From Candidatus Competibacteraceae bacterium (GTDB lineage Bacteria; Bacteroidota; Bacteroidia; CAIKAF01): a stretch of 34,746 nucleotides of DNA. Shown here piece by piece: positions 5,148 through 32,841 of the stretch. Both the position numbers and the translations under genes were made by a program. The notes under the pieces are model-generated. The model was not told the DNA's origin and did not search any database. It was given only the letters and a program-made list of their open reading frames with translations. Position 1 is the first letter of the stretch; the number at the start of each line of letters is the position of its first letter. The stretch spans positions 1 through 34,746 of the forward strand of contig JACSSC010000040.1 of NCBI GenBank assembly GCA_014879445.1, written 5' to 3'.

Positions 5148-5219
5148 AATGTATAACTTTACGAGATAAATGAACCTTTTTTCATGGTTCGTGTATCAAG
5201 CCATCAAATCCCAGACATT

Positions 5220-6401
5220 ATGTCAAAACGACTGTTATATCTTTTATTTATTCTAGTACAGCTCCCCCCTGTTTTAGCACAAACAGAGAAGAATCTTCGC
5301 AAGGAATCAGATAACTCTATGCCCGTGATAGAAGGCAAACAGGAAGAAGCTCAATATTTTTCAGCATTGCCCGTGATGGAGCAGGTTTATCAAAAACAGA
5401 CCACGACCTGGTATCAAAATCAAAAACAGATCTGGGGGCAGAAAGCTGCTGGTCATCAAAAAGATGCAGATGCTTGGTTAAATTATTATAAAGCAGCGCG
5501 ATATGCAGGCGCAGATCAACAGGAATTGAACGATCTCATACAGCAGATGTCGGTAGTTATCCCTGGCACATTCGAATATCATTATGCCAGATATCTTAAC
5601 AGCAATCGTGATTTGTCGTATGCCAAAGATTTGCTCAATGCATATATGTTGCAGCCCAATCGCACGGAGTTGTATAAAGAAATTGCTTTGTATTTTACAT
5701 GGTCGGGCGATCAGGAGAATCTAGAAAAAATTCTGAAGAAATGGAAAAGCGCAGGTGAAATTCCTGATGCGCTTAATCAGTATGCACACAATCTGCTTGC
5801 TACACCTTCGGTTAATGCTTTATTGATAACAGATGGAGAATATGACACGTATCCGTTGTGGATAATGCAACAGGTGGATAAATATAGAACGGATGTAAAG
5901 GTGTTGAATATTTCATTGCTCGATAAAACACAATATCGTACTGATATATTAAAGAAATACGGATTGTCATGTTCGTATGCCGGTAATAATCATGCTAAAA
6001 TCATACAAACATTGCTGCATGAAAATCCCAGTGCCACATTTTATTTTTCATTCACCATTAATACATCAACATTGCAATCCATACAATCTAACTTGTATAA
6101 TGAAGGGCTTGCATATCGCTATGCAAAAGACAAATACAATTCATTGTCAAGATTAGAGCAGAACTGGGAAAAGCAGTTTGAGTTATCATATTTAGATGCA
6201 AAAATCAAAGGGTCAAAAATATTTACTCAGCAAAAAATGCAGGCCTTGTATTTGAATTATGTTGCATCAGGCCTTGAGTTGTATGATTATTACATGACAA
6301 AATCTGAAAAAGATAAGGCGACGCGATTGCTTCAGCGACTTCGAGGGCTGGCAGCACAGCAGTCAAAAGAGTCACTTATTGAGCAATACATTAAACCATA
6401 G
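5220..6401 (+). CDS. exported helical-repeat protein of unknown function, first gene of a sigma-factor operon
   Basis: The start at 5220 is chosen because MSKRLLYLLFILVQLPPVLAQ is a clean signal peptide; the ORF extends 12 codons upstream without one. The mature protein (about 370 residues) is mostly helical, with TPR-like stretches (DAWLNYYKAARYAGADQQELNDL, then a repeat near FEYHYARYLNSNRDL). A middle segment, NALLITDGEYDTYPLWIMQQVDKYRTDVKVLNISLL, recalls the soluble tail of DUF2723 membrane proteins, where a similar phrase about 'time/number of D-T-Y-P-L-W' occurs; here there is no membrane part. The stop is 3 bp before the GTG of the ECF sigma gene, so the three genes 5220-7796 are probably co-transcribed. 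I cannot name a function. A role in the envelope stress sensed by the sigma/anti-sigma pair is inference. Confidence 0.65.
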   Translation: MSKRLLYLLFILVQLPPVLAQTEKNLRKESDNSMPVIEGKQEEAQYFSALPVMEQVYQKQTTTWYQNQKQIWGQKAAGHQKDADAWLNYYKAARYAGADQQELNDLIQQMSVVIPGTFEYHYARYLNSNRDLSYAKDLLNAYMLQPNRTELYKEIALYFTWSGDQENLEKILKKWKSAGEIPDALNQYAHNLLATPSVNALLITDGEYDTYPLWIMQQVDKYRTDVKVLNISLLDKTQYRTDILKKYGLSCSYAGNNHAKIIQTLLHENPSATFYFSFTINTSTLQSIQSNLYNEGLAYRYAKDKYNSLSRLEQNWEKQFELSYLDAKIKGSKIFTQQKMQALYLNYVASGLELYDYYMTKSEKDKATRLLQRLRGLAAQQSKESLIEQYIKP

Positions 6402-6992: not shown

Positions 6993-7796
6993 ATGAAAGA
7001 AGATTTTTACCATATGGATCAATTAGAGCGCTTGATGGAGACCAAAACATTTAATGAGTTAACCGACCAAGAGAAGGAATTTGTGCATATGCATATTGTT
7101 TCAGAATCGGAGTATAATGATATGCGTAATGTTTTGCTGCAGGTAAAACAAGTATTAACTTACGAACGCGAACAAGTGCATGCACCTGTTTCATTAAAGG
7201 AGTCGTTAATAGATAAATTCAATGATGCGAATCCTTCCGTTGGAATGAGAAGACCCAATCGTCAAATTGGGCGTTGGGTTTATTATGTTGCAGCATCTGT
7301 TCTGTTGCTTTTATCGGTTTGGGTGGTGTATGAACAATGGCCTGAGAAAAATGCGCCTCATTTGGCTTTGCATGAAAGGGAAAATCCTGTAAATCATGAA
7401 ATTCCAGTTGCTCCTGAACATAATGAAGTTGTTACCATGGATGCAGAAGAATTACAATTAAAATCTAAAGATGCTGAATTGGTAAGTGGTGAGGCAACAC
7501 ATACAACGGTTTCAGGGATGTCGGATTTGGAGGTAACGGTTAGGGATGAAACAGAATTTGCTTATCGTGAAGATATAGATGACGTCACAACTGCGACCAA
7601 TGCATTGCCAGATTATTCAACACCGATTTTAGAAGAATCTAACAAAGGAGAATCGGAAAAGAAATCTAAAAAATTAGGTCAAGGTGTAGCTCCTTCATCA
7701 AATACCAAATCGGATAAGGATGCTACGTTATCTGTCGCCGAACAATCGGCTGACAAACATTTAATTCGTCAGCAGTTTATATATACAGATTTGTAA
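6993..7796 (+). CDS. putative membrane-bound anti-sigma factor
   Basis: The 267-residue protein has a cytoplasmic N-terminal domain of about 94 residues with acidic and helical character (FNELTDQEKEFVHMHIVSESEYNDM), one membrane segment (residues about 95-113, GRWVYYVAASVLLLLSVWVV) and a low-complexity, acidic, Ser/Thr-rich periplasmic tail. Position directly after an ECF sigma gene (6 bp) together with this topology is the usual arrangement of an anti-sigma factor in Bacteroidota. No zinc-binding HxxxCxxC motif is present, so it is not a ZAS-type anti-sigma factor. It has no recognised catalytic residues. Its last codon is one base from the convergent DUF3467 gene, leaving no room for a terminator. 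The role is inferred from context. Confidence 0.7.
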   Translation: MKEDFYHMDQLERLMETKTFNELTDQEKEFVHMHIVSESEYNDMRNVLLQVKQVLTYEREQVHAPVSLKESLIDKFNDANPSVGMRRPNRQIGRWVYYVAASVLLLLSVWVVYEQWPEKNAPHLALHERENPVNHEIPVAPEHNEVVTMDAEELQLKSKDAELVSGEATHTTVSGMSDLEVTVRDETEFAYREDIDDVTTATNALPDYSTPILEESNKGESEKKSKKLGQGVAPSSNTKSDKDATLSVAEQSADKHLIRQQFIYTDL

Positions 7797-10952: not shown

Positions 10953-12047
10953 ATGAAAACTAATTTTAAATCAATGCTTATTCTGCTTATTCCGGCCATG
11001 ATACTACACATGTCATGTGGAGGAGGACAAGCCGTTAATAAAACAGAAAATAATCAGTTATCCAAGAAAGTGAGAAATGCAGTTTTGGATCAACATATTG
11101 AAGAATTGGCAGCTTGCGAAATGCAGAATGTAAATTGTGAGGCATATAATAAAACATCGGCATTTGTGCAGGAGCAATGTAAAGATAAGGCACGACGAGA
11201 TTCCATTATTGAAGATTTGTTCGTTATGATTGAGCAAGGCGCTTCGCCTAAAAAGCAAGCAGCTGCCAATGCACTTAATTTTTGGACCGGTTATGGCGAA
11301 AATAATTTTCGTGATAATGCCTCTTACGGGAAAATTGTTTTAGAAGCTTTGTTGAAAGAGAAATTTTCGTCCAATAGTTATGTTGGGTCTTCATTAGGAC
11401 AATTGTTATCAGGATGGTTGAATACTTCGGACAAAGAATTATTTTCTTCGCTTGTGGATGCCATGAAGAGCAAGAATACTGAAAAGCGTGGAAGGAATGA
11501 ACTGATTCGCTTATGCTCAGAAGATGCGATGGATAAACCTGAAGTTTTTGAAGTAATGGTTGGTATTGTAAATGATGTGGATGATGATAAAGATACCCGA
11601 ATTCAAACATTAAATGTGATGTGGCGAGTGAAGAGCGAAGACAGAAAGACAACAGTACGTTCTATTTACGAAAGCATGACCAGTAATCCTGATATTCATA
11701 TTGCAGGTGCTGCCATGAGGGGGTTAGGTTATCTTCAGTCATTTGCCAGCTATGATTTGATAGAAAAAACCCTTACAGATAATAAAAATAATGTAGATTG
11801 GTATAATTATGGAAGTACTACCTTAAATGAACTGCTTCGCAATGTGCCTGATTCGTTAGATAAAAAGCGTGTATTTAATCTTGTAAAAATGCTTATTACA
11901 AATAAAGAAGTAGATGAGTATCAGCGTAGTTTCTATGTTTACACACTTTCGTTGATTGATACGCCTGCATCTAAGTCGTTGATAGGTCAACTCAAAAAGG
12001 GAAATGAAAAGAAAATAGTTGATGAAATCAATCGTGTAGTGAAATAA
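10953..12047 (+). CDS. lipoprotein of unknown function with helical-repeat body
   Basis: The 364-residue product begins with a lipoprotein signal (MLILLIPAMILHMSC, lipidated cysteine C22, followed by GGG). The mature part is alpha-helical and repetitive. Segments such as AAANALNFWTGYGENN, IQTLNVMWRVKSEDRKTTV and AGAAMRGLGYLQSFASYDL look like HEAT-type repeats, a protein-protein scaffold, though no repeat is textbook. No catalytic motif is seen. It lies 99 bp after the response regulator with its own -7-like box, so it may be a separate unit or a target of that regulator. A strong hairpin follows its end. Lipoprotein call firm; function unknown. Confidence 0.8.
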   Translation: MKTNFKSMLILLIPAMILHMSCGGGQAVNKTENNQLSKKVRNAVLDQHIEELAACEMQNVNCEAYNKTSAFVQEQCKDKARRDSIIEDLFVMIEQGASPKKQAAANALNFWTGYGENNFRDNASYGKIVLEALLKEKFSSNSYVGSSLGQLLSGWLNTSDKELFSSLVDAMKSKNTEKRGRNELIRLCSEDAMDKPEVFEVMVGIVNDVDDDKDTRIQTLNVMWRVKSEDRKTTVRSIYESMTSNPDIHIAGAAMRGLGYLQSFASYDLIEKTLTDNKNNVDWYNYGSTTLNELLRNVPDSLDKKRVFNLVKMLITNKEVDEYQRSFYVYTLSLIDTPASKSLIGQLKKGNEKKIVDEINRVVK

Positions 12048-16964: not shown

Positions 16965-18353
16965 TTAATAGCCCAATATTTTCAACATGGACTTATAGCT
17001 TTGCTCTTTGCTAAAGAGTTTAGTGAAGTATTCGCCATTTTCGTCTTTGTCAATGATAACGTGTTTGGGTGCAGGAATAAGACAATGCTGAATACCACCA
17101 TATCCACCAAGCGATTCTTGATAAGCGCCGGTATGGAAAAATCCGAGATATAGTGGTTCACCGGGTTGCAATTTGGGAAGAAATACTTGTCCGATATGAG
17201 CTTCGGCATTGTAGTAGTCCAAGCTATCGCAAGTTAATCCGCCTAAATTGACGCGCTGATATTGGTTTTCCCAGTTATTAATTGCGAGCAGAATGAATCT
17301 TTGTTTTAGCCCCCAGGTGTCGGGTAGGGTAGTGATAAAGGAGCTATCAATCATATACCAAATTTCTGTATCGTTTTGCATTTTTGAATCAAGAACTGAA
17401 TATAACGAAACGCCGCTTTCGCCCACAGTGAATGAGCCAAACTCAGTAAACAAATTGGGCTCTTCTACACCATTTTCATTGCAAATTACTTTGATTTGCT
17501 GCACAATTTCGTTTACGATATACTCATAATCAAACTCAAAAGCCAGTGAGTTTTTGATGGGCAATCCACCACCGATATTTAATGAATCTAGCTCGGGACA
17601 TATTTTTTTTAATTCACAATACACATTAAGACATTTTGACAATTCGCTCCAGTAATATACCGTATCGCGAATTCCGGTATTTATGAAGAAATGCAGCATT
17701 TTTACTTGAAATTTTTTATTGCCTTTAATTTTGTATTGATAAAAAGGAACGATGTCTTTATAACGAATACCAAGGCGGGATGTGTAAAATTCAAAATTGG
17801 GTTCTTCTTCAGAGGCAATGCGAAGTCCAATTTTCATGGGATGTTTAGTGTGTTTATCAAAATATGCCAATTCGTTTGTATTGTCGAGTATAGGGATGAT
17901 ATTGAACCCTTCGTTGGCAAACCTTGTTATTTGCTGCATGTAGGCATCGCGTTTAAATCCATTGCAGACAATAAATTTTGATTTATCAATCAATCCTTTG
18001 GCATATAATTCACGAAGAATTTCCATGTCGTAATGCGAAGATGTTTCAACATGTACATCATTTTTTAGCACCTCTTCCATCACAAAACTGAAGTGAGAGC
18101 TTTTAGTACAGTAGCAATAGGTGTATGAACCTTGATAATCGGCCTTTGCCATTGCCACTTTAAACATTATCTTTGCCTTTTGAATCTGGTCGCTAATTTT
18201 GGGTAGATATGTAAGTTTGAGCGGTGTGCCATATTGTTTGATAATCTCCATCATAGGGATGTCGTGCCAGTATAACTCACCATCTTCTACCCGAAATCCT
18301 TCTTGAGGAAACTCAAAAGTTTGTTTGATCAGGTCTTCATAATGTACTTTCAT
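16965..18353 (-). CDS. speA: biosynthetic arginine decarboxylase, fold-type III PLP enzyme
   Basis: The 462-residue product decarboxylates arginine to agmatine, the first step of the agmatine route to putrescine. It matches the long Bacteroidota arginine decarboxylase family from the first residues (VHYEDLIKQTFEFPQEGF). The PLP lysine is K84 in YCYCTKSSHFSF of the alanine-racemase-like barrel. The phosphate-binding glycines are in SLNIGGGLP, and the C-terminal active-site cysteine is in CDSLDYY, followed by FHTGAYQESLGGYGG. The length is shorter than E. coli SpeA (about 650) but normal for this branch. It is divergent from arginase, 120 bp away, across a pair of direct repeats. The diaminopimelate-decarboxylase-related alternative is less likely. 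The symbol is given for function by family. Confidence 0.88.
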   Translation of the reverse strand: MKVHYEDLIKQTFEFPQEGFRVEDGELYWHDIPMMEIIKQYGTPLKLTYLPKISDQIQKAKIMFKVAMAKADYQGSYTYCYCTKSSHFSFVMEEVLKNDVHVETSSHYDMEILRELYAKGLIDKSKFIVCNGFKRDAYMQQITRFANEGFNIIPILDNTNELAYFDKHTKHPMKIGLRIASEEEPNFEFYTSRLGIRYKDIVPFYQYKIKGNKKFQVKMLHFFINTGIRDTVYYWSELSKCLNVYCELKKICPELDSLNIGGGLPIKNSLAFEFDYEYIVNEIVQQIKVICNENGVEEPNLFTEFGSFTVGESGVSLYSVLDSKMQNDTEIWYMIDSSFITTLPDTWGLKQRFILLAINNWENQYQRVNLGGLTCDSLDYYNAEAHIGQVFLPKLQPGEPLYLGFFHTGAYQESLGGYGGIQHCLIPAPKHVIIDKDENGEYFTKLFSKEQSYKSMLKILGY

Positions 18354-18473: not shown

Positions 18474-19553
18474 ATGAAATCTATCAAATTAATTGAAGTG
18501 CGTTCAGAGCTTGGAGCGGGTACTCGAGGAGCCAGTTTAGGCATTGAGGCACTTAAGCTGGCCTCACTTGAATATGGTTCATATTTCTTTGGCAAGTATA
18601 AAAGCAAAGAGATTCGCGACAATTCCCGCTTACTATTTAAAAACCCTGTAAGAACATATGCGAAGCGCATCAGGGGTGTGATTAAGATATTTGAGAGGCA
18701 GGCCAAAGCCGTTTCGGATGAAATCAAAGCCGGTAGGATTCCTATTGTTATTTCCGGGGATCATAGTAGTGCCGGTGGAACCATTGCCGGCGTAAAAATG
18801 GCATATCCTAAAAGTAAAATCGGCGTTATTTGGATTGATGCTCATGCAGACCTCCATTCGCCTTACACTACACCATCCGGGAATATTCACGGGATGCCGT
18901 TGGCCTCTGCTTTAGGAATAGATTTTCAGGATAAGCCCAAAAATCCGGTGAAAGGCGATACCGTACCATTTTGGGATGTGCTCAAAAATGTGGGAGGAAT
19001 TTGTCCCAAAATTACACCCGATAATTTAGTTTTTGTGGGTTTGCGTGATATGGAAACAGAGGAAATACAATACATACGTAAGCATAAAGTCAAAATTGTA
19101 AAAATACCACAAATACATAAGGGAAAGATTAAGGAGATATGCAATGATATATTGACTTATTTAGGTGGTTGTGATTACCTTTATGTTTCTTTTGATATTG
19201 ATTCGCTAGATAGCAGTGTGGTGAAAGGAACCGGTACCCCTGTACCCAATGGGCTGACTGTTAAAGAAGCAAAAAAACTGCTCACTGGAATTCTAAAGGA
19301 TCCACGTGTATGTTGTTTTGAAATTACAGAAATTAATCCATTGCTTGATGCAGAGAATCGTACGGCTTCGCGTGTTTTTCCTATATTCAGAGATGCGGTT
19401 AATGCTATCGAAAAGCGATTGAAAAAAGCCCAACTTGAGAAACGAATGGCAGAAAAAATTACAAAATCAGTTAGTCAGGTAAAACCTGCATTTCCTGTGG
19501 TTGAAAAAAAATCTAACCGGTTGATAGCCAAAAAAACTTCCAGTAAGAAATGA
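18474..19553 (+). CDS. arginase, with lysine-rich C-terminal tail
   Basis: The 359-residue ureohydrolase hydrolyses arginine to ornithine and urea. Manganese ligands are visible as H97 in GDHS (residues 95-98), D122-H124-D126 in DAHADLH, and D241/D243 in SFDIDSLD. The stretch TTPSGNIHGMP (S135-G-N137, H139) is the arginase loop that holds the amino-acid end of arginine and is missing from agmatinases, so I prefer arginase over agmatinase. The last about 45 residues (after FRDAVNAIEKR) are Lys-rich and unlike the catalytic core. The stop overlaps the argS start as ATGA, making an arginase-argS operon. Formimidoylglutamase is the other family to exclude. Confidence 0.85.
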   Translation: MKSIKLIEVRSELGAGTRGASLGIEALKLASLEYGSYFFGKYKSKEIRDNSRLLFKNPVRTYAKRIRGVIKIFERQAKAVSDEIKAGRIPIVISGDHSSAGGTIAGVKMAYPKSKIGVIWIDAHADLHSPYTTPSGNIHGMPLASALGIDFQDKPKNPVKGDTVPFWDVLKNVGGICPKITPDNLVFVGLRDMETEEIQYIRKHKVKIVKIPQIHKGKIKEICNDILTYLGGCDYLYVSFDIDSLDSSVVKGTGTPVPNGLTVKEAKKLLTGILKDPRVCCFEITEINPLLDAENRTASRVFPIFRDAVNAIEKRLKKAQLEKRMAEKITKSVSQVKPAFPVVEKKSNRLIAKKTSSKK

Positions 19554-23106: not shown

Positions 23107-23913
23107 ATGAAAGGAATACTGGAGGGGAAAATAGGAATTATTACCGGGGCTTTGGATGAGAACTCCATTGCATGGAAAGTGGCAGAACAATGCCATGCTC
23201 AGGGTGCCCGATTTATTTTATCTAATGCACCCGTTGCTTTGCGAATGGGTAAAATTAATGAGTTGGCAGAGCAATGCAATACTGAGGTCGTTTCTGCAGA
23301 TGCTTCTGTTGAAAGTGACTGGGAAAATTTATTTCATCATGCCATGAATAAGTATGGAGGGAAAGTGGATTTTGTGTTGCATAGCATCGGCATGTCGCCC
23401 AATGTTCGTAAAGGAAGACATTATACGGATTTGAATTATGATTGGTTTTTGAAATCATTGGATATTTCTGCTCTTTCTTTTCACAAGATGTTACAAACAG
23501 CTCAGAAACTAGACGCTATCAGCGAATGGGGTAGTGTGTTGGCTTTATCATATATAGCTGCTCAACGCACATTTCCTGATTACAATGATATGGCTGAGGC
23601 AAAAGCGCTTTTGGAATCTATTGCTCGTAGCTATGGTTATCACTATGGTGTAGCCAAAAAAGTTAGAATTAACACCATCTCTCAGTCACCAACCCGAACT
23701 ACTGCAGGTACAGGCGTAGGGAAGTTTGATATATTCTTTGATTATGCGAACCGCATGTCTCCATTGGGTAATGCTTCGGCTGATGATTGTGCTAAGTTTT
23801 GTGCAGTTATGTTTTCGGATTTTGCTCGTATGATTACCATGCAAAACATCTATCATGATGGAGGTTTCAGCAGCGTTGGTATCAGTGCTTCTGTAGTTGA
23901 TAATTTTAAATAG
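23107..23913 (+). CDS. fabI: enoyl-[acyl-carrier-protein] reductase, NADH type
   Basis: The 268-residue short-chain dehydrogenase performs the last step of each fatty-acid elongation cycle. The nucleotide motif is ITGALDENSIAWKVAEQC, the FabI form with a long insertion between the glycines. Catalytic residues are Y149 and Y159 with K166; the spacings of 10 and 7 equal those of E. coli FabI Y146, Y156 and K163. VLHSIG and INTISQSPTRT (motif before the substrate loop) agree. It is the FabI isozyme, the target of triclosan-type inhibitors. An intrinsic-terminator-like hairpin follows. Good family match and normal length. Confidence 0.95.
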   Translation: MKGILEGKIGIITGALDENSIAWKVAEQCHAQGARFILSNAPVALRMGKINELAEQCNTEVVSADASVESDWENLFHHAMNKYGGKVDFVLHSIGMSPNVRKGRHYTDLNYDWFLKSLDISALSFHKMLQTAQKLDAISEWGSVLALSYIAAQRTFPDYNDMAEAKALLESIARSYGYHYGVAKKVRINTISQSPTRTTAGTGVGKFDIFFDYANRMSPLGNASADDCAKFCAVMFSDFARMITMQNIYHDGGFSSVGISASVVDNFK

Positions 23914-24013: not shown

Positions 24014-25798
24014 ATGGCACATTCTTTTCACATTCCCGTTATGGGAACCAGCTACACCATTGATACACCCATTAAGGTGGCACACTTGGGTATTGATTCT
24101 GTTATATCATTAAGTGATGATGTATTGATGGAAAAACTCCGAAAAATGTATTGTAAATGGTTTGAAATGCCTTATGCGGAGATATCTTCCAATACTGATC
24201 ATTCACGCTCCAAGCGAATTACGGCCTATCTCGATACTATACACAGCATTGCCACACGAAAATTTGAGAGTTTATGCAATTCTATACACGAAAGTAAAGA
24301 GGAAATCAAAAAGTATATGTCGCTATTGCCTGATACATCTTCTCTTAAACAGCGTCTGTATGCATATCTATCTGTGCCTTCATCAGATGCAGAAGTACAA
24401 AAGAAAATTTCCGATGCACTTATTATGGGTAGAATAGGAGTGAATATAATGACGAAAGTGGATAGAGAAAATTATCGTCATGGCAAGGTGTTGCCTATTG
24501 AATATAACGATGCACATGCTGCCCTTCTTGGATTTGCTAACAGCAGATTGCATGGCCCAGTTATTTTTTCAGCCGGACTGAACCCTCGCTTGTATAATTT
24601 TATTGAGACCCTACCCGGTTTCATGCCCGACGAAAACGGATATGTGGCTAAGCAGATTGTATTAAAGGTGAGTGATTATCGTTCGGCGTGGATACAGGGT
24701 AAATATTTGGCTAAAAAAGGGCTTTGGGTTTCTGCTTTTAAAATTGAATCAGGGTTAAATTGTGGTGGCCATGCTTTTGCTACTGATGGTTTTTTAATGG
24801 GTCCGATTCTTCATGAGCTTTTTAAGAAGAAAGATGAATTGCAGAAGGAAATGTATGCATTATATAAAGCAGCCCTTATTAAGAAAGGAATTCCATTACC
24901 TGAAAAGAATCCCACATTTCGGTTAATGGCACAAGGTGGTGTGGGAACAGCGGATGAACATCAGTTGTTGCTGAACCATTATCACTTATCATCTGTGGGC
25001 TGGGGATCCCCTTTCTTGCTGGTACCAGAAGCTACTACAGTAGATCGGGATACCATACATAAATTGGCGGCAGCCGGCCCTGACGATTTATATCTGAGTT
25101 ATATATCTCCACTCGGCATACCGTTTAATAATTTACGAGGCAATACAAAGGACATTGAAAAACAAGAACGTATTGATGCCGGCAATCCGGGTAGTAAATG
25201 CCCTAGAAAATATCTCGCTTTTGATAAAACCTACGATGATAAAGGTATTTGCTCTGCTTCTACAAAATATCAGCATATTAAGATACAGGAATTAAATGAT
25301 AAATCACTATCAGTAGAAGATTATCAAAAAGCATATCATAATATTACCGAAAAGGCATGTATTTGTACAGGATTAAGTGTATCAGCCCTGTTACATTATC
25401 ATCTGAATCATCGCATTGAAGGAAATGGAGTTACCGTTTGCCCGGGTCCCAACATTCAATGGTTTACACGTGAAGCTTCTTTGGAAGAAATGACAGGTCA
25501 TATATACGGTCGCAATAATTTGATTAACGACAGCAATCGACCACACATGTTCATTAATGAACTTGCTTTGTATGTTCGCTATTTAAAAGAGAATATTGTA
25601 GTTAAATGTAATGCAGATGAAATTGATGCAAAGTATGTTCATTCTTTTATTGATAATCTGAATCAAGGTATCCAGTACTATCATGATTTATATGTAGAAC
25701 TTTCCAATACAGAACATGCCCTGCCTGTCGAATTCCCGTTACAATTAGATAATTACAGTAACCTGATTAAACAGGTACAATCCGATATATCTGCATGA
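24014..25798 (+). CDS. conserved Bacteroidota protein of unknown function, cysteine-rich, possible barrel
   Basis: The ATG at 24014 is chosen; the upstream TTG at 24008 adds two residues. The 594-residue soluble protein has no signal peptide or membrane segment and belongs to a large family I remember as hypothetical across Bacteroidota. Its most striking parts are GLNCGGHAFATDGFLMGPIL (residues 247-266, C250), QGGVGTADE (307-315) and WGSPFLLVPEATTVD, whose glycine-rich turns resemble phosphate- or flavin-binding loops in beta/alpha barrels. A later cysteine set is C396 (GSKCPRK), C413 (GICSAS), C449 and C451 (ACICTGL) and C476 (VCPGPN), which could bind an iron-sulfur cluster or zinc. A flavin/Fe-S oxidoreductase is one guess; I cannot establish it. 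Monocistronic by position between the fabI terminator and purK. Confidence 0.7.
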   Translation: MAHSFHIPVMGTSYTIDTPIKVAHLGIDSVISLSDDVLMEKLRKMYCKWFEMPYAEISSNTDHSRSKRITAYLDTIHSIATRKFESLCNSIHESKEEIKKYMSLLPDTSSLKQRLYAYLSVPSSDAEVQKKISDALIMGRIGVNIMTKVDRENYRHGKVLPIEYNDAHAALLGFANSRLHGPVIFSAGLNPRLYNFIETLPGFMPDENGYVAKQIVLKVSDYRSAWIQGKYLAKKGLWVSAFKIESGLNCGGHAFATDGFLMGPILHELFKKKDELQKEMYALYKAALIKKGIPLPEKNPTFRLMAQGGVGTADEHQLLLNHYHLSSVGWGSPFLLVPEATTVDRDTIHKLAAAGPDDLYLSYISPLGIPFNNLRGNTKDIEKQERIDAGNPGSKCPRKYLAFDKTYDDKGICSASTKYQHIKIQELNDKSLSVEDYQKAYHNITEKACICTGLSVSALLHYHLNHRIEGNGVTVCPGPNIQWFTREASLEEMTGHIYGRNNLINDSNRPHMFINELALYVRYLKENIVVKCNADEIDAKYVHSFIDNLNQGIQYYHDLYVELSNTEHALPVEFPLQLDNYSNLIKQVQSDISA

Positions 25799-29591: not shown

Positions 29592-31862
29592 CTATGGCAT
29601 ACAAGGAATAATATGCGTATTGTATGAAAATTTATTCGCATTGCTATGTCTCTGAATCATAATGCTACCTGCTTTTCTAACCCATAAATCGTCCACTAGA
29701 AAATTTAGGTTCATAAAATCATATGCGGTTAGCACTATTTCATACCTATGAGATGGGTTCAACTCAAAAACACATTCAGTATAACTCCAGTTTTGATTTA
29801 CAACTTCACTTCTGGCTGGATTAGAAAAGGTTACCCATCCCTTAAATACATTTTGATTATCATACTCTTGTATAATAAAGCATCCATTCACGGCATTTTC
29901 CATTTGATTGTATATCCAACAAGAGGCAACAAATGTGCCTGTTTCCTGCGTTCCTGGCTCAATGGTGTAAAGTAGATTTGCGTCACCTCTTCTGGTCTTA
30001 AATGCACCTTGTCCTTGGTGAGCAATAGGTGATGCATGGTCTTCGAAGCCGGAATAAAATACGTTACCATTATCAATTATCTCCCAACCGGAATAGCGAA
30101 TCATGGTGTCGCATGCACTGTGTGTAGTCCAGTCAGAGATGGCTAATTGATAAAGCGAGAATTCGCCTGATTGATGTATGGGAACGGATCTGTTAATGAC
30201 GGATTGCTCAACAATTGAAACTTGTTTAGTGTGTGCTAATAATAGAATGGACTGTTGATTGGGAAGATGATGTATGATAGGGTTTTCATAAAATGGAAGA
30301 TTAACGGCGGTACGCATGATTTCTGTTTCTGTTTCTGATGGGCGTATCAAAATGCCTCCCATTATGGGCAATTGCGTATGCCATGATAACTGGTATGACG
30401 CCATCATAGATTCGTATGAGAATGGAGAAGAAAATCGAAAACTTCCTTCTAAGGATAAAGGTAATGACAATATAGCTTGTGATTTTTGGTTGTGATGATA
30501 AACAGAAGCCATTTCTTTCCAATAGGTATCATTATTGCCATAAGTGGCATAAAAATTATCGGTGGATGTAAGCTTTTTTGCTAAATCACGATTTGCTAAA
30601 CCGGCATCTACAAATCCATAAATCAGAATAATTTGAGACAGCGCATAAGGTATTTTTTGTCCTAATTGAATGGCGTCTTTTATCCATACATAAAAAAGAT
30701 AACAGGAAATTATCGCAAATACATTGTAAAATGGCCAAGCAAATCTTCCTAAAAATCTAAATTGCCTGGCAGGAGTAATCCAATCGTACAAAAACGCCAT
30801 TTTGGACAGGCCGAATAATCCAGTTGCTAATAATAAAAGGATGCCGGATGAAATCAGGAGGGGATAAAAGTTTTTCTTAATTGAAATAATGCTGTCTTTC
30901 AAACGGATAACCTTAAAGGCACCTAGTGTCATGCAAGCTATAAAGAAAAAAGGGATGAAAGCAGGATCGAAATAATCAGGTTGTTCTTTGTGAATAATAT
31001 GAGTTAGCCAATTGCCGGTTAGTCCGGTAGGTTGAATTAACCATTCGTAAATGGCAAGATAATGTTCGCCATATCCACCCGGGCTTTGATTTCGGTTTGT
31101 ATGTGTGTCGGTTAGGTAAAGTGTGATGAGAAATATTCCAGCAGGGATGATTATACTTGCCAAACCTATTGCTATGGATTTGATACGGTTACTATGTGTA
31201 AAAAAGGCATATATGCACCACGTAAGTCCTGAAAATATTGAAACAATTAATCCCAAATAAGGATGTGTGAAAAATGCTAAGGTGGCAACGAAGACGGAGA
31301 GGATACCATATCCTTTTTTGGATGTATGAATAAATTTTACAAAAGCCCAAAGTATTGATGGAATCATCCATAATGCAGCCAACGAAAAGTTTCCGGCCAT
31401 CTTGCCCCATTGGGGTGAAAGAAATACAATAAGTAATGAAAATATAACTGAATACCCAATGGATATTCTCCATTCTCGAAATAATTGGTAAAGAAAAAAA
31501 TATGCGATAATCAGCATGGATAAATGCAGGAGGTTGAAACAGGCAATTGTGTATGGCGATAGGAACGGAAGAACCATAAAAAGCAAGCGACCGGTAAGTA
31601 ATAAGAGTGGATTGGCATCCAAATAAAAAACATGTTCACCGAATGGATAATTGAGATATTCAAACTGGAATACATTCTGATTGTGATGCACATACATCAT
31701 GAAGACATAATAAGCGCGTTGCCCATCATTGCCTGCATCCATCAAAAAATCGTTGGGATGAAAGAACAATTCAGGATAGAGTGTAAGTACTAACAAAAAG
31801 GCAGGAACCCAAGATAATAACCAATTCCATTTCCCTCCGAATGTTGTTTGATTAATAGTCAT
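29592..31862 (-). CDS. multi-spanning membrane protein, GT-C glycosyltransferase-like, with C-terminal beta-sandwich
   Basis: The ATG at 31862 is chosen because earlier in-frame codons would cross the divergent gene at 31924. The 756-residue protein has about ten or more hydrophobic segments over residues 15-450 (e.g. LLSWVPAFLLVLTLY, IIAYFFLYQLF, ILLLLATGLFGL). The first external loop has LNYPFGEHVFYLDANPLLLL, like the acidic, proline-rich loop of GT-C lipid-linked sugar transferases and DUF6311-type proteins. The catalytic Asp cannot be assigned surely. The last about 180 residues (GNVFYSGFEDHASPIAHQGQGAFKT to LNFLVDDLWVRKAG) look like a carbohydrate-binding jelly roll. It may transfer sugars from a polyprenyl donor; this is inference. 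Confidence 0.65.
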   Translation of the reverse strand: MTINQTTFGGKWNWLLSWVPAFLLVLTLYPELFFHPNDFLMDAGNDGQRAYYVFMMYVHHNQNVFQFEYLNYPFGEHVFYLDANPLLLLTGRLLFMVLPFLSPYTIACFNLLHLSMLIIAYFFLYQLFREWRISIGYSVIFSLLIVFLSPQWGKMAGNFSLAALWMIPSILWAFVKFIHTSKKGYGILSVFVATLAFFTHPYLGLIVSIFSGLTWCIYAFFTHSNRIKSIAIGLASIIIPAGIFLITLYLTDTHTNRNQSPGGYGEHYLAIYEWLIQPTGLTGNWLTHIIHKEQPDYFDPAFIPFFFIACMTLGAFKVIRLKDSIISIKKNFYPLLISSGILLLLATGLFGLSKMAFLYDWITPARQFRFLGRFAWPFYNVFAIISCYLFYVWIKDAIQLGQKIPYALSQIILIYGFVDAGLANRDLAKKLTSTDNFYATYGNNDTYWKEMASVYHHNQKSQAILSLPLSLEGSFRFSSPFSYESMMASYQLSWHTQLPIMGGILIRPSETETEIMRTAVNLPFYENPIIHHLPNQQSILLLAHTKQVSIVEQSVINRSVPIHQSGEFSLYQLAISDWTTHSACDTMIRYSGWEIIDNGNVFYSGFEDHASPIAHQGQGAFKTRRGDANLLYTIEPGTQETGTFVASCWIYNQMENAVNGCFIIQEYDNQNVFKGWVTFSNPARSEVVNQNWSYTECVFELNPSHRYEIVLTAYDFMNLNFLVDDLWVRKAGSIMIQRHSNANKFSYNTHIIPCMP

Positions 31863-31911
31863 CTGTTTATAAATCGGAACCAAGATAGAAAAATACAACC
31901 ATATCGGTTTG

Positions 31912-31919
31912 TAAATTTG
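31912..31919 (+). promoter_or_regulatory. putative -7 box TAAATTTG directly before an ATG
   Basis: TAAATTTG fits TAnnTTTG and ends only 4 bp before the ATG at 31924. If it is a true -7 element the transcript would begin at or near the start codon (leaderless). No TTTG lies at 19-21 bp upstream. Alternatively it is coincidence. Confidence 0.35.
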
Positions 31920-31923
31920 CAAC

Positions 31924-32841
31924 ATGAAGTATTTGATTTTTTTCATGGGATGCTTTGCATCAGGGGGGGTGTTGGCACAAAAAAACACATCTGAGGATTA
32001 TATTCGCCTGTATAAAGATGCTGCCATTGAAAATATGAAGTTGAAAAAAATTCCGGCTAGTATCACACTAGCTCAGGGCATTTTGGAGTCGGGAAATGGG
32101 AATAGCGATTTGGCGGTTAATGCAAATAATCATTTTGGAATTAAATGTCACAACGGATGGACAGGCGAATCGTATTATAAAGATGATGATGCCCCTAATG
32201 AGTGTTTTAGAAAGTATAAATCTGTATTGGATTCGTATAAAGATCATGCTGATTTTCTCACATCACGCGATCGCTATAAGTCACTCTTTTCGCTTGAAAT
32301 TACAGATTATAAAGGATGGGCAAAAGGGTTAAAAGCTGCCGGTTATGCCACAAGTGCAACTTATGCTGATAAACTCATTGAACTTATTGAGCGATATAAA
32401 TTGCATGAATATGATGTAACTTCTGAAATCAAGACCAAACCCTATAATACTACCACATTGCCTGATCAGATTCAACCCAACCAGCAAGGAACCGGATTGG
32501 TTTTTTTTGTAAACGGGTTGCGTGCAGTTAAAGTGAGTAAAGGTCAAACTAAAGTTGGAATGGCTGCTGATTTCGGTATTAAACTTCTACATCTTCAAAA
32601 GTATAATGAGCTGGGTGATTCGGATGAATTATATGAGAACCAATTGATTTTTCTTGAACCCAAACGGGGTTCTGCTGAGTCGGGAAAAGATTTTCATATT
32701 GTAAAGCAGGGTGAAACTTTTTACAGTATTGCACAGATGTATGGTATCTGGGTGAAAGATTTGCTTAAAAAAAATAAAAAAGGATTGGGAAGTACACTTG
32801 AACCGGGCGAACGAATTTATTTGCGAAAAAACAGGCCTTAA
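31924..32841 (+). CDS. exported GH73-type N-acetylglucosaminidase with LysM domain
   Basis: The 305-residue protein starts with a signal peptide (LIFFMGCFASGGVLAQ), then a glucosaminidase domain (about residues 25-175). The general acid is probably E55 in TLAQGILESGNGNSDLA, followed by the family's NHFGIKC, TGESYYKDDD and KGWAKGLKAAGYATS. A linker (180-255) leads to a C-terminal LysM domain (about 258-303: FHIVKQGETFYSIAQMYGI to LEPGERIYL), which binds peptidoglycan. It probably trims peptidoglycan during growth or separation. It is divergent from the GT-C-like gene and convergent with the small protein at 32855. Family is secure; physiological role is inferred. Confidence 0.92.
   Translation: MKYLIFFMGCFASGGVLAQKNTSEDYIRLYKDAAIENMKLKKIPASITLAQGILESGNGNSDLAVNANNHFGIKCHNGWTGESYYKDDDAPNECFRKYKSVLDSYKDHADFLTSRDRYKSLFSLEITDYKGWAKGLKAAGYATSATYADKLIELIERYKLHEYDVTSEIKTKPYNTTTLPDQIQPNQQGTGLVFFVNGLRAVKVSKGQTKVGMAADFGIKLLHLQKYNELGDSDELYENQLIFLEPKRGSAESGKDFHIVKQGETFYSIAQMYGIWVKDLLKKNKKGLGSTLEPGERIYLRKNRP

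Follow-up and report, generated by a model that had tools for sequence, protein, structure and literature searches.

The gene at positions 24,014 to 25,798 of the window (the whole 34,746-nucleotide stretch of DNA analysed here) belongs to a protein family that is well conserved, yet unnamed in the curated libraries searched, and that is a variant of the FabX/nitronate monooxygenase (NMO) design. The assignment of its fold to the FMN barrels of the nitronate-monooxygenase class is well supported by structure prediction, and an Fe-S cluster in the protein is plausible. The reading we favour, at close to an even call, is that the family enzymes are FabX-like and serve unsaturated fatty-acid synthesis at low oxygen, with an FMN barrel and a [4Fe-4S] subdomain. 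The grounds for this reading are the predicted fold class, the invariant residues, and the regulatory and gene-neighbour context, from which we infer the cofactors, substrate, reaction and physiological role.

Gene, protein and conserved residues

The open reading frame starts with an ATG at 24,014 and its stop codon ends at 25,798 (594 codons, ORF check on the window). An in-frame TTG six bases upstream is an alternative start, which would give 596 residues. The preliminary description of this DNA had named the motifs GLNCGGHAF and QGGVGTADE and five late cysteines in this frame; all are present, the cysteines at the positions it gave, and the reading frame was confirmed. The features of the gene and of its upstream neighbour are listed below.

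23107..23913, + strand: FabI-like enoyl-ACP reductase, neighbour (PF13561, E 1e-59), 100 bases upstream of the family gene
24014..25798, + strand: gene of the FabX-like, predicted flavin/iron-sulfur family, without a library model, 594 aa
24119..24418, + strand: mostly helical insert after the first barrel strands, residues 36-135 (model secondary structure)
24677..24718, + strand: conserved basic helix, residues 222-235, with R223, K230, K234 and K235 (conservation)
24752..24778, + strand: GLNCGGHAF, residues 247-255, invariant except L248 and A254 (each 50/51)
24932..24958, + strand: QGGVGTADE, residues 307-315, FMN-barrel glycine motif (alignment conservation)
25046..25513, + strand: barrel end and cysteine-rich region, residues 345-500, inside the FabX-aligned span, which ends at FabX residue 363
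25199..25201, + strand: C396, candidate Fe-S ligand, invariant 51/51
25250..25252, + strand: C413, candidate Fe-S ligand, invariant 51/51
25358..25360, + strand: C449, candidate Fe-S ligand, invariant 51/51
25364..25366, + strand: C451, candidate Fe-S ligand, invariant 51/51
25439..25441, + strand: C476 in the invariant CPGPN, candidate Fe-S ligand, invariant 51/51
25547..25792, + strand: C-terminal helices, residues 512-593, past the FabX match (model secondary structure)

The window protein was aligned with 50 relatives that are 41-52% identical to it (51 sequences in total). It has cysteines at positions 47, 88, 250, 396, 413, 449, 451, 476 and 532, of which C250, C396, C413, C449, C451 and C476 were invariant in 51/51 sequences. 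Position 47 was Cys in 21/51, and C88 and C532 were each Cys in fewer than 10 of the 51, leaving the sixth late cysteine, C532, without conservation. Also invariant in all 51 were E245, N249, the GGH at 251-253, Q307, the GG at 308-309, G311, E315, W330, P333 and the CPGPN at 476-480. The GC content and third-position GC of the family gene were close to those of its neighbours in the window, so that composition gives no hint of a foreign origin.

Distribution of the family

A scan of genome contigs yielded 38 family loci, whose record titles named Flavobacteriaceae, Crocinitomicaceae, Saprospiraceae, Bacteroidales, Cytophagales, Ignavibacteria and, once, Chlorobi. In the relatives set (60 genomes) the gene was present in 17, the window's genome counted; the 15 further members of the window's taxonomic family in that set, three of them of the same genus, gave no match. 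Across the phylum sample the gene was found in 96 of 247 genomes and 61 of 122 genera, about two fifths of the genomes, which bears out the earlier claim of conservation across Bacteroidota, with a patchy distribution. The copy number in these 247 genomes was nearly always one. One genome (G206) has two intact copies, and the copy of another (G077) carries a stop. Plasmid-borne relatives were looked for and gave no match.

A few irregular copies were observed. Genome G149 has an intact copy and, elsewhere in the genome, a second one in pieces with stop codons (C1:4371170-4372874). The gene is broken between two frames in loci L035 (7950-9819) and L032 (4828-6625), for which assembly error and gene decay are both possible.

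Sequence searches

Searches of the window protein against Pfam, NCBIfam and PADLOC gave no real match, and the PDB did not recognise it by sequence or by profile. The preliminary description knew of no function for the family, and this holds for the libraries searched (Pfam, NCBIfam, PADLOC, and the PDB by sequence and profile). A literature search by titles and abstract openings found nothing about the family. The NMO family PF03060 gave no match in the window protein at the Pfam gathering cut-off, and was absent among the 25 Pfam families listed for the 51 aligned members. The matches in that 51-member scan were scattered and weak, many of them to coiled-coil-like models; the best, to apolipoprotein, had an E of 5e-4 in four members. 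We read these weak coiled-coil and apolipoprotein matches as chance matches of helices.

The more specific comparisons were similar. The window protein was not over the NCBIfam cut-off for the PfaD model TIGR02814, and a PfaD search of 148 genomes listed, in the window's genome, other genes only and not the family gene. Neither phmmer nor the profile search brought up a FabX chain among PDB sequence matches with E as high as 10. In the family loci scanned for it, no open reading frame longer than 280 aa had both GGH and CX3CX3CX(8-14)C. When the family alignment was compared by hhalign with 29 NMO/FabK-type proteins of the fetched genomes, the match was weak (probability 2%, P 0.023), with a short stretch pairing AQGGVGT with AAGGIAD and VGWGSPF with VQIGTAF. 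Because this profile match is weak, the kinship with FabX and NMO proteins rests on structure prediction and motifs, not on sequence statistics.

Predicted fold and comparison with FabX

The preliminary description had suggested structure prediction with fold comparison, and both were run. AlphaFold2 on the 51-sequence alignment gave a model with an FMN-type barrel (pLDDT 89.8, pTM 0.90); a model of the C-terminal 250 residues, folded alone without the alignment, had a pLDDT of 36 and was discarded. In VIA-align, ranks 1 to 5 were five FabX entries, the top match being Helicobacter pylori FabX (7e1q; Z 28.8, rmsd 3.0 A, 326 residues aligned) with model residues 1-500 on FabX residues 15-363. 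Behind them came FabK (Z 23.7), PfaD (23.3), fatty-acid-synthase (22.5) and nitronate monooxygenases (about 20). Foldseek against the PDB returned the DfnA and MlnA enoyl reductase domains, PfaD, FabX, FabK and nitronate monooxygenases with E from 6e-10 upwards. The PfaD-type entries had E of 2e-9 to 9e-9, and TM-scores were modest (for FabX 9lt5, 0.41 when scaled to the query and 0.63 when scaled to the target length). A flavin barrel with an iron-sulfur cluster had been proposed earlier, with a likeness to nitronate-oxidase or glutamate synthase enzymes. The barrel and the nitronate-oxidase likeness are supported by the predicted fold, and the cluster is plausible; the best match, FabX, has just this pair of cofactors, FMN and [4Fe-4S]. 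Glutamate synthase-like entries were absent among the matches listed (50 each) by Foldseek and VIA-align.

In the published account of FabX (PMC8626469), the enzyme is described as an FMN barrel of the NMO family and an acyl-ACP dehydrogenase/isomerase that converts decanoyl-ACP to cis-3-decenoyl-ACP, its flavin being reoxidised by O2. Catalysis begins at H182, and two electrons are split between FMN and a [4Fe-4S] cluster bound by the C-terminal subdomain 267-363 via C300, C304, C308 and C320 (PMC8626469). Acyl carrier protein (ACP) sits on helix alpha7 at K152, I156, K159, R160 and R164, and R164A lowers activity about 80-fold (PMC8626469). The family resembles FabX (HP0773, PDB 7e1q) in the barrel over the 326 aligned residues, in the GGH motif with its catalytic His (H253 corresponding to H182 and to the catalytic His of FabK and NMO proteins), and in a cysteine-rich C-terminal extension inside the aligned range. 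By hand count, the basic helix may also correspond to the ACP-binding one.

Counted by hand from the catalytic His, FabX K152, I156, K159 and R164 fall on R223, I227, K230 and K235, on the assumption of a gap-free stretch up to that His. Position 223 was R in 50/51 sequences, position 227 was I in 45 and V in 6, position 230 was K or R in 49/51, and position 235 was K or R in 51/51, while FabX R160 falls by the same count on residue 231, where the family has F, Y, I or L. A shift by one is possible, since E245 lies eight residues before the His here and E175 seven before it in FabX; in that case K234 (50/51) would replace K235, and K230 would take the place of R160.

The family also differs from FabX in several respects. 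Sequence homology between the two was not detectable, and FabX has about 366 residues compared with 594 here, the family carrying in addition a helical insert and helices at its C-terminus. Just ahead of GGH the family has Cys and FabX has Ser (S179 in the published numbering). The cysteine spacing is CX3CX3CX11C in FabX and C396-x16-C413-x35-C449-x-C451-x24-C476 in the family, with five invariant cysteines, which argues for a different ligand set; an Fe-S cluster with a spacing other than that of FabX is possible. Because neither this spacing nor detectable sequence homology agrees with FabX, we did not file the family as FabX.

Other members of the fold class share less with the family. FabK and nitronate monooxygenases (PF03060) have the FMN barrel and the GGH and GG(I/V) motifs in common with it, but the Pfam and NCBIfam models miss it and its profile match to the 29 proteins is weak, as given above. 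PfaD and the trans-acting enoyl reductases (TIGR02814; 4z9r, 4cw5) are alike in fold (Foldseek E about 1e-9), but TIGR02814 misses the family and a polyketide-synthase gene is absent among its named recurrent neighbours. The gonococcal protein NGO1024, which we take to be the one called UfaA, is compared here by its proposed role. This FabX homologue of Neisseria gonorrhoeae is proposed to make unsaturated fatty acids free of O2, with an electron acceptor given as unknown (PMC11300592).

Gene neighbourhoods

A gene-neighbour survey, also suggested by the preliminary description, was carried out on 134 loci besides the window (38 + 16 + 80), of which 101 extend 6 kb or more to each side; RIC, NadA, Rrf2, HemN and nos genes recurred. 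Neighbour names were taken from one representative per family. Within 6 kb of the family gene, NadA was found at 15 loci, the Fe-S repair protein RIC at 15 and an Rrf2 regulator at 13. NadB was listed at 15 loci; the copy at L102, with only 23% identity, resembles succinate dehydrogenase, which leaves 14. The loci with nadA or nadB as neighbours include Flavobacteriaceae, Crocinitomicaceae and a Bacteroidales locus. An ABC ATPase that we presume to be NosF followed at 11 loci, an unnamed 290-aa protein at 10, an M16 peptidase at 10, a second M16 peptidase at 9 and a heavy-metal P-type ATPase at 9. HemN, TnaA and two further families were each found at 8 loci; NosD, a protein that is presumably NosY-like, and other families at 7. 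NosZ was found at 5 loci, as was a protein scoring below its NCBIfam cut-off that we take to be NirK-like, and the oxygen-independent ribonucleotide reductases were rare (NrdJ 3, NrdD 1).

By arithmetic, chance would place a single-copy gene of a genome of about 4 Mb within 6 kb at only about 0.5 of the 134 loci. One close group (for example L132, L133, L147, L148, L154, L158, L159) accounts for several of the families seen 7 or 8 times, which therefore carry little weight. When the family proteins were grouped at 75% identity (89 groups), RIC was a neighbour in 9 groups, NadA in 8, Rrf2 in 8, HemN in 5 and NosZ in 5. At least one of NadA, NadB, RIC, Rrf2, NosD/Y/Z, NirK-like, HemN, NrdJ and NrdD lay within 6 kb at 38 of the 134 loci, so that most loci are without any of them.

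The window copy sits among housekeeping genes, behind the FabI-like gene. A FabI-like homologue (E 1e-10) was absent from all of the 134 other loci; a conserved FabI partnership was therefore rejected, the arrangement being one of the window only (0/134). Elsewhere in the window's genome, on contig 16 (L111 4061-7864), Rrf2, RIC, nadA and nadB lie together in one direction and apart from the family gene, and a NosZ is found on a third contig.

The two M16 peptidase genes (10 and 9 of the 134 loci) precede the family gene in L013, L020, L036 and others, in records of Ignavibacteria or unclassified Bacteroidota/Bacteroidetes.

Co-occurrence across genomes

Co-occurrence with five genes was compared in the 247 genomes. 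The raw p values ignore kinship, and the stratified test covers 134 genomes, those of the 15 taxonomic families that have members with and without the gene. RIC showed the strongest association of the five, with 64/96 positive and 26/151 negative genomes over the cut-off (p 4e-15) and an odds ratio of 8.3 when stratified by family (p 2.5e-5). NosZ was over the cut-off in 46/96 against 39/151 genomes (p 6e-4; stratified odds ratio 2.4, p 0.04). NadA showed no association (76/96 vs 123/151, p 0.74), and NrdD none as a co-occurring marker (7/96 vs 10/151, p 1). Neither RIC nor NosZ was over the cut-off in 25 of the 96 positive genomes.

The desaturase PF00487 was found in 74/96 positive and 71/151 negative genomes (p 3e-6), an association that was gone within families (p 0.53). 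A complementary distribution with desaturases was thus not seen. No PF00487 desaturase was shown in the window's genome.

Candidate upstream operator

We first looked before the family gene for the canonical FNR box TTGA-N6-TCAA, which showed no enrichment (1/52 regions vs 0.95 expected), and for a CRP box, which was not found. An open palindrome scan gave ATGAC-N4-GTCAT and the core TGA-N6-TCA, which matches CRP/FNR-family operators in core and spacing. After dereplication, 112 of 132 upstream regions were kept (two loci were too short upstream); the controls were 1510 upstream regions belonging to other genes predicted in these loci. The core was present in 38/112 regions compared with 204/1510 controls (p 1.3e-7). 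Since it had emerged after a failed first guess, we scanned 960 combinations of three-base palindrome and spacer as a control, among which it ranked best, the next best having p 8e-4; TGA/TCA with 14 other spacers reached p 0.07 at best.

The 42 sites have an extended consensus of about AAAYATGAY-N4-RTCATRTTT, stronger than in the controls, and 35 of them are placed 66 to 146 bases upstream of the start. AACCTGA-N6-TCAGGTT, which contains the core, stands 86-89 bases upstream in the promoters of the seven loci named above, all of one group, and in 0/1510 control regions. TGA-N6-TCA was absent before the window's own family gene, and no convincing operator was seen before the Rrf2-RIC-nadAB genes of its genome.

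Proposed role

The FabX-like fold, catalytic motif, basic helix, cysteines, neighbours and operator fit the replacement of an oxygen-dependent lipid step. By analogy with FabX, an acyl chain on acyl carrier protein would dock at the basic helix (R223, K230, K234/K235), and H253 would remove the C2 proton, with FMN taking the rest. An Fe-S cluster with four of C396, C413, C449, C451 and C476 as ligands could take up one electron. The trans-2 product would isomerise to cis-3, and elongation would then give the unsaturated fatty acid. Such an enzyme may be used at low oxygen or in N-oxide respiration, where oxygen-dependent desaturases fail, and may often be controlled by a CRP/FNR-type regulator.

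A more specific proposal is tentative, and we rate it as short of an even chance: the family has diverged from FabX too far for sequence searches to reach it and makes unsaturated fatty acids free of O2 in Bacteroidota and Ignavibacteria, its Fe-S subdomain of new arrangement passing electrons to a carrier other than O2, as part of a CRP/FNR-controlled oxygen-independent set (hemN, nadAB, nrdJ/nrdD) for denitrification. Counting against the FabX-like, low-oxygen role are the different cysteine spacing, the failure of sequence searches to reach FabX, the positive genomes and loci that have none of the companion genes, the lack of association with NadA or NrdD, the desaturase distribution and the missing enrichment of the canonical FNR box. 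Recurrent neighbours with no evident oxygen link (M16 peptidases, the 290-aa protein, the P-type ATPase) are also about as frequent, and the window copy has neither the operator nor low-oxygen neighbours. If the FabX-like role is true, it would show how many Bacteroidota hold their membranes fluid without O2, an O2-dependent desaturase being replaced as hemN, nadAB and nrdJ/nrdD replace other O2-dependent steps. The family would then be a second case of the FMN and Fe-S design known from FabX, and the electron acceptor standing in for oxygen could be found in it.

Alternative explanations

The main rival to FabX-like lipid synthesis, because RIC is the strongest companion, is an FMN/Fe-S enzyme of nitrosative stress that would remove nitro, nitronate or N-oxide compounds or aid Fe-S repair with RIC, with no part in lipid synthesis. 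Of the five genes, RIC had the strongest association, and it is a close neighbour (6 kb or less) at 15/134 loci; Rrf2 regulators and nos genes recur as neighbours, and nitronate monooxygenases belong to the fold class. However, FabX with its Fe-S domain outranks the nitronate monooxygenases (Z 28.8 vs about 20), the basic ACP-type helix is conserved, and the hemN, nadAB and nrdJ/nrdD neighbours suggest oxygen-independent biosynthesis rather than detoxification; we regard this explanation as unlikely. An FMN/Fe-S enzyme of some other reaction, sharing only the fold of FabX, is improbable in our view: structural similarity does not give the substrate, sequence homology to FabX went undetected, and the family departs from FabX in its helical insert, its C-terminal helices and its five cysteines against four, but the catalytic-His motif is conserved and so is the basic helix, at what by hand count may be the FabX positions.

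A reading as an enoyl-ACP reductase of FabK or PfaD type, working in the reducing direction, is favoured by the fold that these enzymes have in common with the family (Z about 23, and Foldseek E of 2e-9 to 9e-9 with PfaD-type entries) and by the FabI-like gene next to the window gene. The window's genome, however, already has that FabI-like reductase and NMO-family proteins, among them one with FabK as its best PDB match, and NCBIfam, including TIGR02814 (PfaD), misses the family protein; we consider this reading quite improbable. A dedicated enzyme of aspartate-route NAD synthesis, acting with NadA and NadB, was suggested by nadA within 6 kb at 15/134 loci and nadB at 14, and by NadA in 16 of the 17 positive genomes of the first sample (60 genomes). 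NadB is kept in all 17, although in G048 it falls slightly short of the cut-off. As a main role it was largely refuted by the 247-genome count, in which 20 of the 96 positive genomes are without NadA (76/96 vs 123/151, p 0.74), and it is very improbable.

Other genes of the window

A glucosaminidase/LysM gene lies at 31924-32841 of the window, 6 kb from the family gene; three of the 134 other loci (L001 6731-7768, L144, L157) have a homologue of it, 43-50% identical, no more than 2.4 kb upstream of their family gene. Four sizeable window reading frames had no Pfam match at E 1e-5, namely 29592-31988, 5184-6401, 6993-7796 and 10953-12047. An ornithine/arginine decarboxylase-type gene (16965-18353, - strand) is divergent from an arginase-family gene (18474-19553, + strand), and the two are likely a polyamine pair.
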